From an uncultured Acholeplasmatales bacterium (GTDB taxonomy: Bacteria > Bacillota_I > Bacilli_A > Acholeplasmatales > Anaeroplasmataceae): DNA of 40,626 nucleotides. Shown in pieces: positions 18,384-26,527 of the stretch. The notes under the pieces are model-generated. The model was given only the letters and a program-made list of their open reading frames with translations, had not been told where the DNA came from and made no database searches. The stretch spans positions 1-40,626 of the forward strand of contig CALUXJ010000005.1 in NCBI GenBank assembly GCA_944324725.1. The letters are read 5' to 3'. Positions within the stretch are counted from its first letter, which is position 1. Every line of letters begins with the position of its first letter. A program made the position numbers and the translations under genes.

Positions 18384-18416
18384 AAGAGAAACTAGGCCGT
18401 TTCTCTTTTTTCTTTT
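18383..18416 (+). terminator. Terminator of ybaK, overlapping the MATE gene end
   Basis: AAAGAGAAAC (18383-18392) pairs with GTTTCTCTTT (18399-18408) around a TAGGCC loop, followed by a T-rich run. The hairpin covers the last codons of the convergent MATE gene, so it constrains both genes. Confidence 0.85.
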
Positions 18417-19732
18417 TCTAAGAGATAACCATCTAACATCCTAGCTTCTCTTTGGTAGGCTAGCGTAGCTAAAACTAGACTAATAAATTCAACTAAAGGA
18501 TAAGTTAACCAAATACCAAATAAACCAACTGTATTGCCAAGAATTAAGGCTAAGACAATAATTCCCACAAAACCCCGAAATATGGATAATGTAAATGCTA
18601 ATTTAGTTTTACCAATAATACTAAAATAAGAAATCAATAAATAATTTAAACCAGCAAATAAGTAACCTACAAAATAGGTCACTAATCCTTCTTTAGCCCA
18701 TTGTTCTAAAAGCGGATTATTTTCACTATTAAAAATACTTACCAACTGACTAGTAAAAGCAATACTTAACAGATGAAATGCTAAGCCAATCAAGAAAGCT
18801 ATAATTAAGCCTTTATGTAAAAGATGTTTTAATTGCTTTGTTTCGTTTTCGCCATAAGCTACACTAAATAGTGGTTGTAAACCTTGAGTTAAGCCATTAA
18901 AAATAGCAATGACAATTAAACCGAGATTTGCTACTACACCATAAGATGCCACACCAATTTCATTAGAAATATGAAGTATTATAAGATTAAAAACAACTAA
19001 AACTAGGCTAGCTGAAAATTCACTAATCAATGTCGCTAAACCAGGTCTAATAATCTCTAATGTATCTTTAAAACTATATCTAATTTTTACTAAACGCAGA
19101 TTATTTTTATGAAAAATAAAATGAAATAATCCTATTATTAAGCTAATTATAGGCGAAAACCCGGTTGCTAGAGCGGCGCCCAAAATACCCATATTTAAAG
19201 GATATAAAAATAAATAGTCTAGAACTATATTACTTAAGCTACCTGCTACCATCATTAGCATAGCTAATTTAGGATTAGCATCATTTCTAATAAAAGGCAT
19301 CATTAGATAATTGATTACAAAAAAAGGACTAAAGCATAAGACCGTTTTAATGTAGCTAGTACACATGCTTAATATTTCTCCCTTGGCCCCAAGCATTTGA
19401 GCTATAGGTTTAGCTAAAAATAGACCACAACAAAATAAAATAAAACCAATTATTATTGCATTTAAGAATGCTAAGGTAAAGATTTGTTTAGCTTTTTTAG
19501 AATCTTTTTGTGCTTGATAGATACTAAACATAGTTGCACCACCGACCCCTAGCATTAAACCTGTACCACTCAACAAACCAAAAATAGCAATTGCGATATT
19601 TAAAGCTGTTAGACCACTCGTTCCTAAACGATTAGCAACAAAAAAGGTATCAGCAAAAATAGTACTAGAAGTTCCTACCATACCTAAAATACCTAATAAT
19701 ATATATTTGTAAAAGTTTCTACTATTTTTCAT
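18392..19732 (-). CDS. MATE-family multidrug/sodium antiporter
   Basis: 446 residues with about 12 membrane segments in two similar halves (MATE fold). Typical blocks are GMVGTSSTIFADTFFVANRLG near residue 15 and GVGGATMFSIYQAQK near residue 65, then SYGVVANLGLIVIAIFNGLTQGLQPLFSVAYGE in the second half, which marks the MepA-like subfamily. It exports cationic compounds using Na+ or H+ gradients. The ATG at 19732 is chosen: AGGAGG lies 7 bp ahead of it, while the ATG two codons earlier is too close. The long leader with a terminator suggests controlled expression. Confidence 0.92.
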   Translation of the reverse strand: MKNSRNFYKYILLGILGMVGTSSTIFADTFFVANRLGTSGLTALNIAIAIFGLLSGTGLMLGVGGATMFSIYQAQKDSKKAKQIFTLAFLNAIIIGFILFCCGLFLAKPIAQMLGAKGEILSMCTSYIKTVLCFSPFFVINYLMMPFIRNDANPKLAMLMMVAGSLSNIVLDYLFLYPLNMGILGAALATGFSPIISLIIGLFHFIFHKNNLRLVKIRYSFKDTLEIIRPGLATLISEFSASLVLVVFNLIILHISNEIGVASYGVVANLGLIVIAIFNGLTQGLQPLFSVAYGENETKQLKHLLHKGLIIAFLIGLAFHLLSIAFTSQLVSIFNSENNPLLEQWAKEGLVTYFVGYLFAGLNYLLISYFSIIGKTKLAFTLSIFRGFVGIIVLALILGNTVGLFGIWLTYPLVEFISLVLATLAYQREARMLDGYLLEKEKRETA

Positions 19733-19897
19733 CTTCATACCTCCTGATTTAGGCAAAAAAATAAAGGGCACCTAAACGCACCTCTTCAAAGATCTACGAA
19801 GCACGTTTAAGCACCCTTACGATATTTATCCGATGACAAATATCGATGCCGTCATATTTCGTCAATTATAATAACATATTTATTTTATACTTGTCAA
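19733..19897 (-). promoter_or_regulatory. MATE promoter and structured leader with intrinsic terminator
   Basis: TTGACA (19892-19897) and TATTAT (19868-19873) are 18 bp apart. The predicted leader of about 125 nt starts near 19861. First comes a hairpin with a perfect 8-bp stem (19820-19845) whose loop contains GTCAT, complementary to an ATGAC just 5' of the stem (19851-19855), a possible pseudoknot. Then comes a long stem: AAGGGTGCTTAAACG pairs over 15 bp, including G-U pairs, with CGTTTAGGTGCCCTT (19764-19818 overall), followed by TATTTTTTT. The MATE Shine-Dalgarno comes after. This is the layout of a riboswitch or attenuator; the class was not identified. Confidence 0.7.
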
Positions 19898-19938: not shown

Positions 19939-20736
19939 TTATATGTAATTAAAGTAAAATGATATATAAGTAGCAACTTCATTAAATTCATAGTCAGCTA
20001 TATTAGGTATTTCTTCTAATACCTCTGTTTTATCATCATAGTTTTTTATAAAGTAGCTATTATCTTCATAATAATTACCAATTCTAGTAATAGAGTCATC
20101 AGAAAAAGCTATTTCACTTTTAACTATATCATTATATTCATCATCAGACTCAAATGCATAATCAAACTCAACCATTAGATTATCTTCTACTAAATAAGGA
20201 GTTAAACTAATTGTCGAATTAAAATATTGCGACCTATTAGCAAATTGTTCATCTAAATAAGCCATTCTATCTAATAAAACACTTTTAGCTAAAGTCTCCT
20301 CATAATCTTTTTTGTATTCTTCATAAAAAGGGGCAATACCATATTTTAGAATATAATTTTTATCAGCCTTAAAATAACTTTTCTTAACTACTCGTCCACC
20401 AAAGTTTAAATCAATGAAATTATAGATATAATTTTCATCTATAAAATATTTATAGCTGATAGCTCCTTCGAAATAGTCGTCTGATGACGTAGCAAGGGTA
20501 ATATTAAGATAATAGTTACTAGTGTTAAACTCATATTTGCGGATTAACTTATTTGTTTTATTAGTATCATATTCCTCCTCTATATAGGTGAAATACTGAT
20601 ACTCTTCTTTAGCTTAGGCCTTTATCATAATACTTTCATACTTATTCAAAAAATCATCATATTCCATAGCGTGTCTTGGGGTATCAGCACAACCAACAAG
20701 AAAAACTAAAATTAATAATATTACAAATTTATTCAT
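19939..20736 (-). pseudogene. Lipoprotein gene interrupted by one in-frame TAA
   Basis: The ATG at 20736 opens a frame with an N-terminal lipoprotein signal (MNKFVILLILVFLVGCADT; lipobox LVGC, Cys 16). Codon 41 is TAA (20614-20616). The same frame then stays open to 19939, giving 265 codons in total, with the continuation AKEEYQYFTYIEEEYD directly after the stop and a normal protein composition. No frameshift is seen. The gene follows the XRE regulator by 2 bp. The family is not recognised: an Asp/Tyr/Asn-rich secreted protein with alternating beta-type stretches. Recent nonsense mutation, a sequencing error or a short 40-residue lipopeptide are the possible explanations. Downstream ATG starts exist, but none carries the signal peptide. 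Confidence 0.8.
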
Positions 20737-21583: not shown

Positions 21584-23656
21584 CTATGCAATCATTGCAT
21601 CACCAGTTATCACAAATGAAACATTAGTGAATTGAGCGACTGTTCCTCTAGTAGCATACATACCTACATACATATATTCTCTATCAATGGCAACAAAATC
21701 AAAGTCGGTATATGTTTCTTCATAAACCACATCTTTATAAGTTACTTTGACATTAACAACCTGACCGATTCTTTCAATTTCTAATAAAGCTGTATCACCT
21801 GTTTGATATAAACCATTTACTACATTACCACTATTAATAAGCTTTGTACTTTCCCTTGAATAAATGATATTAGTTGCTGAATCAGAAGTATACATTCCTG
21901 CTGCTACATAATTACTAATAATTGATTTATCGCTACTGCTTTGTTCTACATAAATGTCATCCCTTAACATTAAACCAAAGCCTGCTTGCTTAGTATCTAC
22001 TTCACTACTAACTTTTACTTCAGCAGTAATTTTAAAATTCTTATTAATAGAAACCTGTTTAAAAATCATTGCTATACCTTCGGTTGAAGATGCAATTTTG
22101 CCTTTAGGACTACTAGTTCCTGTTTGACCAACCGTAAATTCATTTGCTACCAATTCTTCTGCTACATAGCCACTAGATTTAGAAGTAGGAGTTCCACCAC
22201 AATCACCAAAGGCTGTTCCATACCAATCAGGACTAATAAAGTTAGTCCACGTTTTTGGAACATATGTTGTAGCATCAAATGGTTTATAGTCTGATTCTTG
22301 ATAATTTGGATTAACTACTAAATCAGCAACGGTTGGTGCTGAAATATCCTCTTTTACATAATTTTTTAACTCACAATTACTATTTTGCAATAGTGTGGCT
22401 AAATTATAAGCAACCATTTTAGCACCATATATATTAAGGTGAGTAGTATCTACAGAAGCACTATTAGAAGTAGTCCAGGCATGAAATTTAATAGCCTCAT
22501 CATATCCAACTTCTTCATATAGATTTTTAGTTGCCGTAGTTAAATCTAAAACGGTTACTCCTACTTCTTCACCTAACTCACAAATGGCCTGTCTATAATC
22601 ACCATATGCCGTAATATGAGCAGATGAACCAGTATAATCATCTTTAGAATTAGCTCTAACTATTGGGGTAACTAAGATTGGCGTTGCAGATTTTTCTTCT
22701 GCTAGCTTAATGTAATAATTATATAAATTATATTTGAAAGAACCTTCTTCGGTTAATGAACCATTAGCACTAGAAAAACGCGTTGGATCATCATTTTTTT
22801 CATCATTATGCCCAAAGCCAATCAATAAATAATCATTTTCTTTAAGACTAGATTTAAGATTTTGGTAATTACTTTCTACTAGATAACTCTTAGAACTTCT
22901 ACCTGATAAAGCCAGATTAACAACCTCTGCCTTAGGAGATAGATATTGACTAAGCGTAGTACCATAGCCATAGCGTGGATAATAGTAAGTTACGTCATTA
23001 AAGGACGCAACCGTCGAATCGCCAACTAGATAAACAGTCGTATTAGCTAATTCTACAACTGATTCAACGACATATTCTACCTCATTAGAATAATCACTAT
23101 TTAAATAATTTGAATCAGCAGCTGCTAAAGCCATAACTTGTATTTTATAAGTACCAACTGTTGATTCTGTAATTTGATAGCTTGCAGATTTTATCTGTTT
23201 TTCATCGTCATTAATCTTAATTTGATAACCACTTGCATTATTAATAGGCTCCCAAGAAACAACATCATCATTTAAACTAATAACAGGAGCTGTTAATTTT
23301 TCTTTTATTGGAGCTTTTGCCTCAACTGTATAAGCTACTTCGTTAGAGTAGTCACTATTAGTAAAATTAGAATCATTACTTGCTAAAGCCCGTACCTTTA
23401 ATTTATATGTTCCTGGCTCTATTTGATTAAAAGTATAAGTAGTTGTGTTTGTATTAGATGTCTCACCATCTAAAGATAATTCGTAATTTACCGCCCCACT
23501 AATTTGGTTCCAACTAGCTACATTCCCACTTAAAGTTAAAGTCGGAGTAGCAAGTGGGGTCTTTGCTTGATCATCGCTAGAAACATTAGTATTACTACAA
23601 CTAGTAAATGTTAGTAAAGATAATAGCATAAACAAACAAATAAATATTTTTTTCAT
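21584..23656 (-). CDS. SGNH (CE12-like) esterase lipoprotein with two FN3-like domains
   Basis: 690 residues. The lipoprotein signal ends in the lipobox FTSC (Cys 20). Two repeats of about 90 residues follow, each of fibronectin type III-like form and each ending in a NSDYSNEVAYTV or NSDYSNEVEYVV strand. The SGNH hydrolase (about residues 205-420) has block I VYLVGDSTVAS (Ser nucleophile), block II GRSSKSY, block III GFGHND and block V DTTHLNIYGAK (Asp and His). This is the arrangement of rhamnogalacturonan acetylesterases such as B. subtilis YesT/YesY. The last 200 residues look like a beta-sandwich, perhaps carbohydrate binding. Last gene of the esterase-TetR-esterase operon. Confidence 0.85.
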   Translation of the reverse strand: MKKIFICLFMLLSLLTFTSCSNTNVSSDDQAKTPLATPTLTLSGNVASWNQISGAVNYELSLDGETSNTNTTTYTFNQIEPGTYKLKVRALASNDSNFTNSDYSNEVAYTVEAKAPIKEKLTAPVISLNDDVVSWEPINNASGYQIKINDDEKQIKSASYQITESTVGTYKIQVMALAAADSNYLNSDYSNEVEYVVESVVELANTTVYLVGDSTVASFNDVTYYYPRYGYGTTLSQYLSPKAEVVNLALSGRSSKSYLVESNYQNLKSSLKENDYLLIGFGHNDEKNDDPTRFSSANGSLTEEGSFKYNLYNYYIKLAEEKSATPILVTPIVRANSKDDYTGSSAHITAYGDYRQAICELGEEVGVTVLDLTTATKNLYEEVGYDEAIKFHAWTTSNSASVDTTHLNIYGAKMVAYNLATLLQNSNCELKNYVKEDISAPTVADLVVNPNYQESDYKPFDATTYVPKTWTNFISPDWYGTAFGDCGGTPTSKSSGYVAEELVANEFTVGQTGTSSPKGKIASSTEGIAMIFKQVSINKNFKITAEVKVSSEVDTKQAGFGLMLRDDIYVEQSSSDKSIISNYVAAGMYTSDSATNIIYSRESTKLINSGNVVNGLYQTGDTALLEIERIGQVVNVKVTYKDVVYEETYTDFDFVAIDREYMYVGMYATRGTVAQFTNVSFVITGDAMIA

Positions 23657-23669
23657 ATTTTCCTCTCTT

Positions 23670-24176
23670 TCATTCTATAATTAGCTTAATAGCAAACGGG
23701 GTTAAAGTTTTAGAAATTAAACTCTCTACATAATTCTTAGTCCATGTTGAATTTTTCGACCAACTGCTTAAAAGATAGCAAAAAATTTCTACTTTTAGAT
23801 TTAAAAGCTCAGGGTTACTATCTTTGAAATAAAGCCCGATAACATTATATAAAACATTAGTTGCTTGGTTATATAAGATTGAAACTAAGTCCTTATGAAA
23901 TTGCCAATAATTACAAAAAAATAGTAATTTATTATCAGCACTTGGAAGATTTAAAAGATACCTTTTATAAAAGTAATTAAACATTACCTCTAAAACATCG
24001 GTTACATTATTGAAATTACGATAAAAGGTCGTTCTAGAAATATCACAAATTGCACTGATATCCGTAACCGTGATATCATCTAATTTTTTGGTTAATAATA
24101 ATTGTCTTAATCCTTTATAAATCTTTTTTTGACTATCAAGAGATTTCTTGTTAGCATAGTTTAATTCTGCCTTCAT
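23670..24176 (-). CDS. TetR/AcrR-family transcriptional regulator
   Basis: 168 residues. The N-terminal HTH reads KKIYKGLRQLLLTKKLDDIT then VTDISAICDISRTTFYRNFNN, a clear TetR-type DNA-binding head. The C-terminal 100 residues are helical and rich in aromatic residues, a ligand pocket with no close match I can name (the DhaS-like small TetR group is similar in size). The ATG at 24176 is taken because AAAGGTGG lies ahead of it. It sits between two esterase genes with gaps of 13 and 38 bp and no terminator, so it is cotranscribed and may sense a pectin-derived signal and control its own operon. Confidence 0.88.
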   Translation of the reverse strand: MKAELNYANKKSLDSQKKIYKGLRQLLLTKKLDDITVTDISAICDISRTTFYRNFNNVTDVLEVMFNYFYKRYLLNLPSADNKLLFFCNYWQFHKDLVSILYNQATNVLYNVIGLYFKDSNPELLNLKVEIFCYLLSSWSKNSTWTKNYVESLISKTLTPFAIKLIIE

Positions 24177-24214
24177 ACCAATTATCACCACCTTTAAAAT
24201 TTCTTACTTCAAAA

Positions 24215-26527
24215 TTAATCGTAATATTCAATAATTATATAAAATAAACTAATATTACTACCTAAAGAACCAATTCGATAAGTACCTCCCTTATTAACCT
24301 CCATTGTTGTTAATGTTTGGGTTGCCTCCGCACTGGCAGTAGCTACAATAGTTGTTCCCCCATTTTCTACTAAACCTAATTGTACCGTTCTAGTATCTGA
24401 ACCACCACTTTGAGCAACAATTGTAATCGAACATGCTTTTTCCACTGTAAATTCAACATACCTCTTACTTACATTTGAGCTATTGCCATTTAATTTAATA
24501 GCTTGGCTAGTTTTATCGTAGCTCTCGCCGTTATATTCAAAGTTAACACTAGCTTTCAAGTATGGGGTAGCTTCTAAGTCAGATGCAAAAGTAAATGTAT
24601 GATTAGCAACCGTTATAGGGGTATTATTATTAACATACAAATCAGCATTGAAGACAATCGTTTGGCTTGGCTTTGGACGAGAGGCTTCTGCTGCTGCCTC
24701 ATACTTTTCTAAAAGAGTTAAATTAGTTACTTCACTCCGCAAGTCGTAGTTCAATTGATTATAAAGATTTCTCACATCAGCACATTGAGCTGACCATTCC
24801 TCATAGTCAATTGTCCCATTATCTATAGCCGTATCGATGTCTCCCAATTTAGTAGCTAAGTCATTAATTGCCTCTATTACAACACTCGCTTGCATATATT
24901 CACGCTTAGGATTTGTAACTTTTATGACTTTTAACAAATTTTCCAATTTACTAACCATACTTATACTAATTCTATTAGATGGATCAATATACTCTTTTGG
25001 TTCAGTTAGAACATAACTGGCAAAGTTAAAATATTCAACTTTATCTAAGCCCTTAATAACCTCTGTAGAAGTTTGATTTAAAATTGTTTCTGCTACATAA
25101 GCAGCTACTAAATAAGCACCATACTTATTATAATGGGTAGCCTCTATTTTTTCAAATCCCACTTCAGGGTTATTGTACCAATTATCATAATCACTTGGCC
25201 ATGAGCCGATAAAGTCATTTGGCACCAAAGCCATCAAAAAATCAGCATAATCCTTAGTAGCTGTTTCAATCAAATTTTTGGTAAAGGCAAAATTATCAAT
25301 TAAAAGACAATTCTCCTCGTTTGCTAATTGTCTCACTGCTTCAACATAAGCAAAATTGTCACCATGTAAACCTGGCCCATCTTTTAAGGTACCATCAGCA
25401 TTAAAGGCCACACGAGCTACTGGAGTCATTAAAACAGGAATAGCTCCCTTTTTACGCGCTAAATCAATATATTGTTTTAGATACCATTTATATGTACCAT
25501 CACCATAGGCGTAGTAATCTGAACCATATTTAGCTAATTCAGCTAAAATGGCCTCTTTTTCGCTTTCATTGGCCGCTGCTAAATATTCAGGTGGTAAATA
25601 GGATGTTGGCTTCTTTCCTGTGGGAGCCGTCGTAGGATAAATGCCATTTTCATCTGGTTCACCTAATGGCACCATTCGATTTGGCATTGTAGTATAACCC
25701 TTAGTTGCATCGTCATTATGTCCGAACTGAATAAATAAAAAATCGCCTGGTTGAATGGTTTCTTCAATTGCTTTGCCACCATTTTCACTGAATGTATAAG
25801 TTGCGTCACTTGAGGCAAACAATCTATCTTCATTTATAAATGATCTTGAACTTCTACCGCCTTTAGCAGCATTAATAACTTCTATATCATCTGTCATAAA
25901 TAAATCTAAATATTGTCCCCAACCGGCAATAAATTGCTTATCATCATAGGACTGAACTGTTGAATCTCCAACTAAATAAATGGTTGTTTTTTTATCCGTT
26001 ATAAGACTCCATTTAGCATATAGTTTAGTATCACTCGTGATAATCTCGCTGGTAAAATCAAAAGAATTAATATAGCTTATGTCCTTATACCAGCCTTCAA
26101 ATCTATAACCTGCTACATTAGGATCAGCCGGCTTTACTACTAAATTACCCGCCTCAATAGTTTGGGTAGCCGGTGCTTCACCATGTCCTTGCATTATAAA
26201 CTCAACGGTAAATGAAGTTTTGGTTATTGCACTCCACTTAGCATAAATTGTTGTATTAGCTGTAATAGCATCTGTTAAAAAATCAAATACATTTTCACAG
26301 CTTGCTTCTTTATACCAACCGCCAAATTCGTAACCAGTTGCACTTGGATCAGTTGGTTTAGTTGCATATTTTCCTTTTTCTACTAATTGACTATCTATCG
26401 CATTCCCATGTCCCTGCAAAGCAAATGTTACAGTGTATGTTTCGCTTGAATCTACTTGCGAATTCTGGCAAGCTACTAAAGATAAAATTGATAGCAGCAA
26501 AAGAAAAAAAGTTGATATTTTCTTCAT
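24215..26527 (-). CDS. SGNH (CE12-like) esterase lipoprotein with InlB-type repeats
   Basis: 770 residues. The signal peptide has lipobox LVAC (Cys 20). Two InlB/Flg_new-type beta repeats follow (about 30-98 and 105-175), each with GYEFGGWYKE or GYRFEGWYKD and ending TTIYAKWS or TKLYAKWS. The SGNH domain (about 180-480) has IYLVGDSTVQSYD, GGRSSRSF, IQFGHNDD and ATHYNKYGAY, giving the Ser/Gly/Asn/His pattern. It has a longer insert (GDGTYKWYLKQYIDLARKKG) than its paralogue. A helical region follows, then a beta-sandwich ending YRIGSLGSNISLFYIIIEYYD, similar to C-terminal domains of pectic enzymes. First gene of the operon. Predicted to remove acetyl groups from pectin at the cell surface. Confidence 0.87.
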   Translation of the reverse strand: MKKISTFFLLLLSILSLVACQNSQVDSSETYTVTFALQGHGNAIDSQLVEKGKYATKPTDPSATGYEFGGWYKEASCENVFDFLTDAITANTTIYAKWSAITKTSFTVEFIMQGHGEAPATQTIEAGNLVVKPADPNVAGYRFEGWYKDISYINSFDFTSEIITSDTKLYAKWSLITDKKTTIYLVGDSTVQSYDDKQFIAGWGQYLDLFMTDDIEVINAAKGGRSSRSFINEDRLFASSDATYTFSENGGKAIEETIQPGDFLFIQFGHNDDATKGYTTMPNRMVPLGEPDENGIYPTTAPTGKKPTSYLPPEYLAAANESEKEAILAELAKYGSDYYAYGDGTYKWYLKQYIDLARKKGAIPVLMTPVARVAFNADGTLKDGPGLHGDNFAYVEAVRQLANEENCLLIDNFAFTKNLIETATKDYADFLMALVPNDFIGSWPSDYDNWYNNPEVGFEKIEATHYNKYGAYLVAAYVAETILNQTSTEVIKGLDKVEYFNFASYVLTEPKEYIDPSNRISISMVSKLENLLKVIKVTNPKREYMQASVVIEAINDLATKLGDIDTAIDNGTIDYEEWSAQCADVRNLYNQLNYDLRSEVTNLTLLEKYEAAAEASRPKPSQTIVFNADLYVNNNTPITVANHTFTFASDLEATPYLKASVNFEYNGESYDKTSQAIKLNGNSSNVSKRYVEFTVEKACSITIVAQSGGSDTRTVQLGLVENGGTTIVATASAEATQTLTTMEVNKGGTYRIGSLGSNISLFYIIIEYYD

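Follow-up and report, generated by a model that had tools for sequence, protein, structure and literature searches.

Riboswitches of the guanidine-IV class combine two hairpins with a pseudoknot and a terminator, and are located before SugE, MATE and PnuC genes (PMC7736828). In this class, the ligand stabilises a kissing loop, so the terminator stem is not completed and transcription reads through. In the Clostridium botulinum representative (PMC11611296), C30-G71 and A29-U72 are among the kissing pairs, and there is a conserved G77. Here, we focused on the leader of a MATE family efflux transporter gene in an uncultured Acholeplasmatales bacterium, encoded within a 40,626-nucleotide (nt) stretch of contig CALUXJ010000005.1 (positions 1 to 40,626; hereafter, the window). 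The leader is a real candidate for a transcription-terminating riboswitch, and it very probably has the guanidine-IV architecture, with a predicted ON-type response. Judged from its sequence, it is a rare guanidine-IV subtype, in which a U-A pair at the middle of the kissing loop appears to have been passed on along with a separate clade of MATE proteins.

All of the leader elements are on the minus strand (−) and are given below in the order of transcription, followed by the gene.

19868-19897 (−): promoter, based on consensus match only, with a −35 TTGACA (19897-19892), an 18-nt spacer and an extended −10 TATTAT (19873-19868)
19820-19845 (−): P1 hairpin, the first half of the aptamer, 11 base pairs (bp), CGAUAUUUGUC (19845-19835), loop AUCG (19834-19831) and GAUAAAUAUCG (19830-19820), aligned with covariation to 32 other leaders
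19832-19834 (−): 5' side of the kissing loop, AUC, equivalent to positions 29-31 of C. botulinum guanidine-IV (there ACC; numbering of PMC11611296), pairing with 19794-19792 in register with the 32 other leaders, all of them paired
19764-19818 (−): P2, the intrinsic terminator hairpin, 21 bp with a 13-nt loop, GUAGAUCUUUGAA
19792-19794 (−): 3' side of the kissing loop, GAU, positions 70-72, which are GGU or GGC in the standard class (PMC7736828, PMC11611296)
19787 (−): conserved G, the counterpart of G77 in C. botulinum and G72 in Lactococcus lactis, invariant in 33 of 33 leaders
19755-19763 (−): U-tract of the terminator, UAUUUUUUU
19740-19745 (−): Shine-Dalgarno sequence AGGAGG of the MATE gene, 7 nt before the ATG
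18392-19732 (−): MATE family efflux transporter, 446 amino acids, directly downstream of the leader (Pfam PF01554, 111.7 bits; NCBIfam TIGR00797, above cut-off)

The promoter matched the consensus at 11 of 12 positions plus the extended TG and was the best of 24 sites within 4 kb (shuffled 4-kb sequences had on average 23.3 sites of any quality), in line with the good promoter reported by a first-pass annotation of this DNA. With transcription predicted to start near 19861 and the ATG located at 19732, the leader is ~129 nt long, very similar to the ~125 nt with a stem-loop proposed previously, the stem-loop being P1. The 130-nt leader had a folding energy of −46.4 kcal/mol, as compared with −27.7 ± 3.7 kcal/mol for shuffled sequences (z = −5.0; 0 of 200 shuffles equal). 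In the terminator, 19818-19798 pairs with 19784-19764 in 21 pairs without interruption; the terminator and its T-run had thus been correctly seen, and the stem is longer than the 15 bp assigned to it. The 13-nt terminator loop has no inner hairpin, a single nucleotide (U19819) links P1 to the base of the terminator, and the MATE Shine-Dalgarno sequence follows the terminator as described before. The tertiary contact is a 3-bp kissing interaction of the P1 loop (AUC) with the terminator loop (GAU), which the first-pass annotation missed.

The upstream regions of six MATE relatives resembled each other and the window leader. They shared a short hairpin with a GCC or ACC loop followed by GG, and a terminator loop with UAGGCC or UAGGUC, followed four bases later by a G. 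A covariance model (R1) based on the leaders of five other MATE genes, with the window excluded, recovered the sixth leader and one more (L025 and L028). It also located the window leader on the correct (minus) strand, at 19842-19779, with 13.0 bits, the top score among places that were not clear class members and higher than that of every unrelated place in 131 kb. Altogether, R1 and then R2 revealed ~30 convincing leaders in genomes of the taxonomic class (some of them incomplete), each before a gene encoding a MATE, PnuC-like, SugE-like or pyridoxamine-oxidase-like protein or, in one case, an ABC-transporter-like protein (gene types were judged by eye from translations, unless stated otherwise). 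Two further leaders were found in records of Acetoanaerobium and Monoglobus (Clostridia). The last model, built from 31 leaders without the window and its closest counterpart (the twin, L088; see below), matched the window once, at the leader, with 29.3 bits and an E-value of 2.3e-5. Weak model matches (such as L056, L059, L060 and L062-L069) were dropped, as they had no proper P1 loop, had no terminator or were inside genes. When 60 relatives were searched with the leader using BLASTN, just short AT-rich chance pieces were returned. One guanidine-IV-type leader (L075; G083:C1:874393-874452, plus strand) precedes the ABC-transporter-like gene, a type not named in the available portions of the papers on the class.

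The positions equivalent to C30-G71, A29-U72 and G77 of C. botulinum are in the same columns in the leaders reported here, and the kissing letters are ACC/GGU in L047 and others and GCC/GGC in the rest. Given that the kissing positions, G77 and the downstream genes agree, we conclude on comparative grounds that this leader set represents the guanidine-IV class (GGAM-1/mepA), with the members recognised by anatomy and genes. The window leader shares with this class the P1 hairpin and the terminator hairpin as expression platform, the kissing contact 29-31/70-72, the conserved C31, the GG after the loop, G77 and a downstream MATE gene. Guanidine-IV had been named as a lead in the first-pass annotation, which could not match it to the leader; the architecture was the right one.

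No credible match other than a tRNA elsewhere was obtained when the window was searched against Rfam 15 using cmscan, at the gathering thresholds and with E-values up to 10. However, five standard leaders (L046, L049, L051, L057 and L117) also had no match at the gathering thresholds or at an E-value of 0.1. The class thus seems to be absent from the Rfam 15 copy, and this search, as suggested earlier, says nothing on guanidine-IV. The guanidine-I, -II and -III riboswitches share with the window the exporters downstream and the guanidine theme, whereas the window had no Rfam match to them.

To evaluate the structure, we scored the two stems and three kissing pairs across the 33 leaders (15 pairs, 492 cells). 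In total, 98.4% of the cells were paired and 14 of the 15 pairs had changed on both sides, the counts being of sequences and not of events. None of 500 shuffles matched the real pairing, and sliding the partners reduced it to 28-41%. Pairing at the kissing positions was complete (99 of 99 cells), and each of the three pairs covaried, which was not built in, as the models were made without kissing pairs. The first pair varied widely between G-C and A-U (17 GC, 15 AU and 1 GU), while the second (30 CG, 2 UA and 1 UG) and third (32 CG and 1 UA) had changed once or a few times. The third pair is altered in L087 (G637:C13:9775-9839, minus strand), a leader before a PnuC-like gene, with GCU/AGC as compared with GCC/GGC. 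Covariance among homologous leaders, whose absence the first-pass annotation had set against its own proposal, is therefore strong, and homology and covariation together support the conditional, riboswitch-like terminator that it placed before the MATE gene.

The same annotation drew an H-type pseudoknot between the loop of the stem-loop and its 5' flank (AUGAC with GUCAU), which could define a riboswitch of a new class. The letters exist and five pairs can be drawn. However, when the upstream 36 nt were shuffled, at least five pairs were reached in 118 of 200 cases, and the pairing is not conserved in the 32 homologous leaders. We thus give this pseudoknot almost no credence, and the contact between the two hairpin loops takes its place.

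The window leader differs from the class in several ways. Its middle kissing pair is U-A instead of C30-G71, with A19793 in place of a G reported to be 97% conserved, while its first pair, A-U, agrees with that of C. botulinum. Its P1 is longer (11 bp) and directly abuts the 21-bp terminator, and its MATE belongs to a separate clade. Among the 33 leaders, AUC/GAU was detected only in the window and L088, a leader before a MATE gene in a genome (G633) from another family and order; this genome also has a standard GCC/GGC leader before an operon with a standard MATE. Apart from L088, already known, a pattern scan of 285 genomes for more AUC/GAU leaders returned three places, none of which folded like this RNA. 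Six viral contigs with the AUC/GAU pattern were rejected, as they matched by letters only.

The MATE proteins showed a corresponding distribution. No relative of the window MATE was found at 1e-60 in its genus and family, nor a close one in most of the order, and a scan of genome contigs for MATE relatives returned one distant Thermotogae protein only. Relatives with 35-44% similarity were detected in 20 genomes of a class-wide sample; the nearest on plasmid records had 45%, and two of those on plasmids had leaders, both with GCC loops. The window and L088 MATEs were mutual best matches (48%) and sole clade partners (support 100/99), separate from the MATEs behind standard leaders. Both have A for P at window residue 49 (P in 36 of 37 others) and K for Y at residue 307, a site that is otherwise near-invariant. 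The twin MATE (L089; G633:C3, 4845-6159) is split over two overlapping frames, either as a pseudogene or by an assembly error, and the two reading frames were joined, as protein only, for these comparisons.

As U30-A71 replaces C30-G71, we filed the window leader as a variant and not as an ordinary member of the class. As the MATE clade tracks the paired change and G633 has both leader types, the change appears to be inherited with the exporter type and to coexist with the standard system. Several points weigh against placing such a variant within guanidine-IV. G71 is reported to be 97% conserved and the L. lactis G66C mutation abolishes the response (PMC7736828), and the C. botulinum swap C30G-G71C fails to restore the kissing loop (PMC11611296), suggesting that pair 30-71 is more than Watson-Crick. 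No test of U30-A71 was found. Also, the subtype comprises two sequences, the MATE of the second being split by a frameshift, and a SugE-type gene (PF00893) was not found in the window genome (89% complete) or in that of the twin. At 97% conservation of G71, the published alignment could still contain some leaders of this form.

A change at a near-invariant, binding-critical pair could instead mean that the fold and switch are retained while U30-A71 reshapes the pocket for another small cation or a guanidine derivative, to be exported by the distinct MATE clade. We consider this possible, although unlikely. The pair tracks a separate MATE clade with its own residues (P to A at 49 and Y to K at 307), and G633 keeps both a standard GCC/GGC and an AUC/GAU leader. 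There is also a precedent in Gd4v, a guanidine-IV variant (PMC9788692), which resembles the window leader in its overall fold, its terminator and the presence of MATE among its genes. However, Gd4v keeps G and U at the mutation-tested loop positions 57/58, the first of which seems to be A in the window leader. At the position that may correspond to D1, which is not G in Gd4v, the window leader carries G. Transaminase or GNAT genes are downstream of Gd4v; the window has a MATE gene, which is also known behind Gd4v (PMC9788692). Also against an altered pocket, a Watson-Crick replacement may be neutral, the outer kissing pairs vary among class members, and the window leader has retained G77, the loop lengths and the C and GG that flank the loop. 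The two sequences probably reflect one event. The pattern has the look of a ligand shift, but the same would be seen if a neutral compensatory change had travelled with a transferred leader-gene cassette. That the AUC/GAU leaders arose from guanidine-IV as a riboswitch class with a specificity of its own, sensing a non-guanidine compound that the A49/K307 MATE clade exports, is doubtful, though worth bearing in mind.

The low score of the window (29.3 bits, as compared with mostly 38-70 for standard members, those scored by a different model) and the frameshifted MATE of the twin could also indicate a decaying guanidine-IV copy whose terminator mostly silences the gene. This is improbable, as the two sides of the kissing pair have changed in concert, P1, the 21-bp stem and the window MATE are intact, and two genomes whose MATEs are 48% alike have retained the same form. 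The rare guanidine-IV subtype is the reading we retain.

Based on work on relatives, we infer an ON direction and a steric mechanism for this subtype. When no ligand is available, the 21-bp terminator (19818-19764) would be completed, the polymerase would halt at the U-tract and the MATE gene would be off. With ligand bound, the P1 loop AUC (19834-19832) would kiss the GAU of the nascent terminator loop (19794-19792), and the kissed form would be unable to zip the lower terminator stem, so that transcription would read through and the exporter would be made. The full 21-bp stem and the kissing contact are likely mutually exclusive, because just U19819 links P1 to the terminator. The ligand is most likely guanidine or a close guanidino compound, and we lean, with some reserve, toward guanidine itself. 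Alternatively, the nine-codon frame MTASIFVIG, which ends just before the terminator, could act as a leader peptide of a translation-coupled attenuator responding to ribosome-targeting drugs. This frame exists as first described, but it has no Shine-Dalgarno sequence and is not retained in the twin leader, and the kissing-loop aptamer accounts for the homologous leaders, making an attenuator of this kind highly improbable.

In the surrounding region, the gene beyond the window MATE has the opposite orientation. At 19939-20736 (−), a 265-codon lipoprotein-like frame (MNKFVILLILVFLVGCADT...) contains one in-frame TAA at codon 41, suggesting either a pseudogene of recent origin or an error in sequencing. 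Two adjoining large secreted-looking proteins are encoded at 21584-26527 (−); the first has a GDSL-esterase domain, and the second has, by eye, repeats like InlB B-repeats and a GDSL-like part.

These analyses assign a previously unmatched leader to a riboswitch architecture that is already known but not covered by the Rfam copy. They add a compensatory change found in nature at the very pair for which the engineered swap C30G-G71C failed, and U30-A71 thus bears on whether this pair sets the identity of the ligand or just holds the loops together. The AUC/GAU leader may sense guanidine or something different, and G633, in which the two kinds of leader precede two kinds of MATE, makes ligand and transport specificity comparable side by side.
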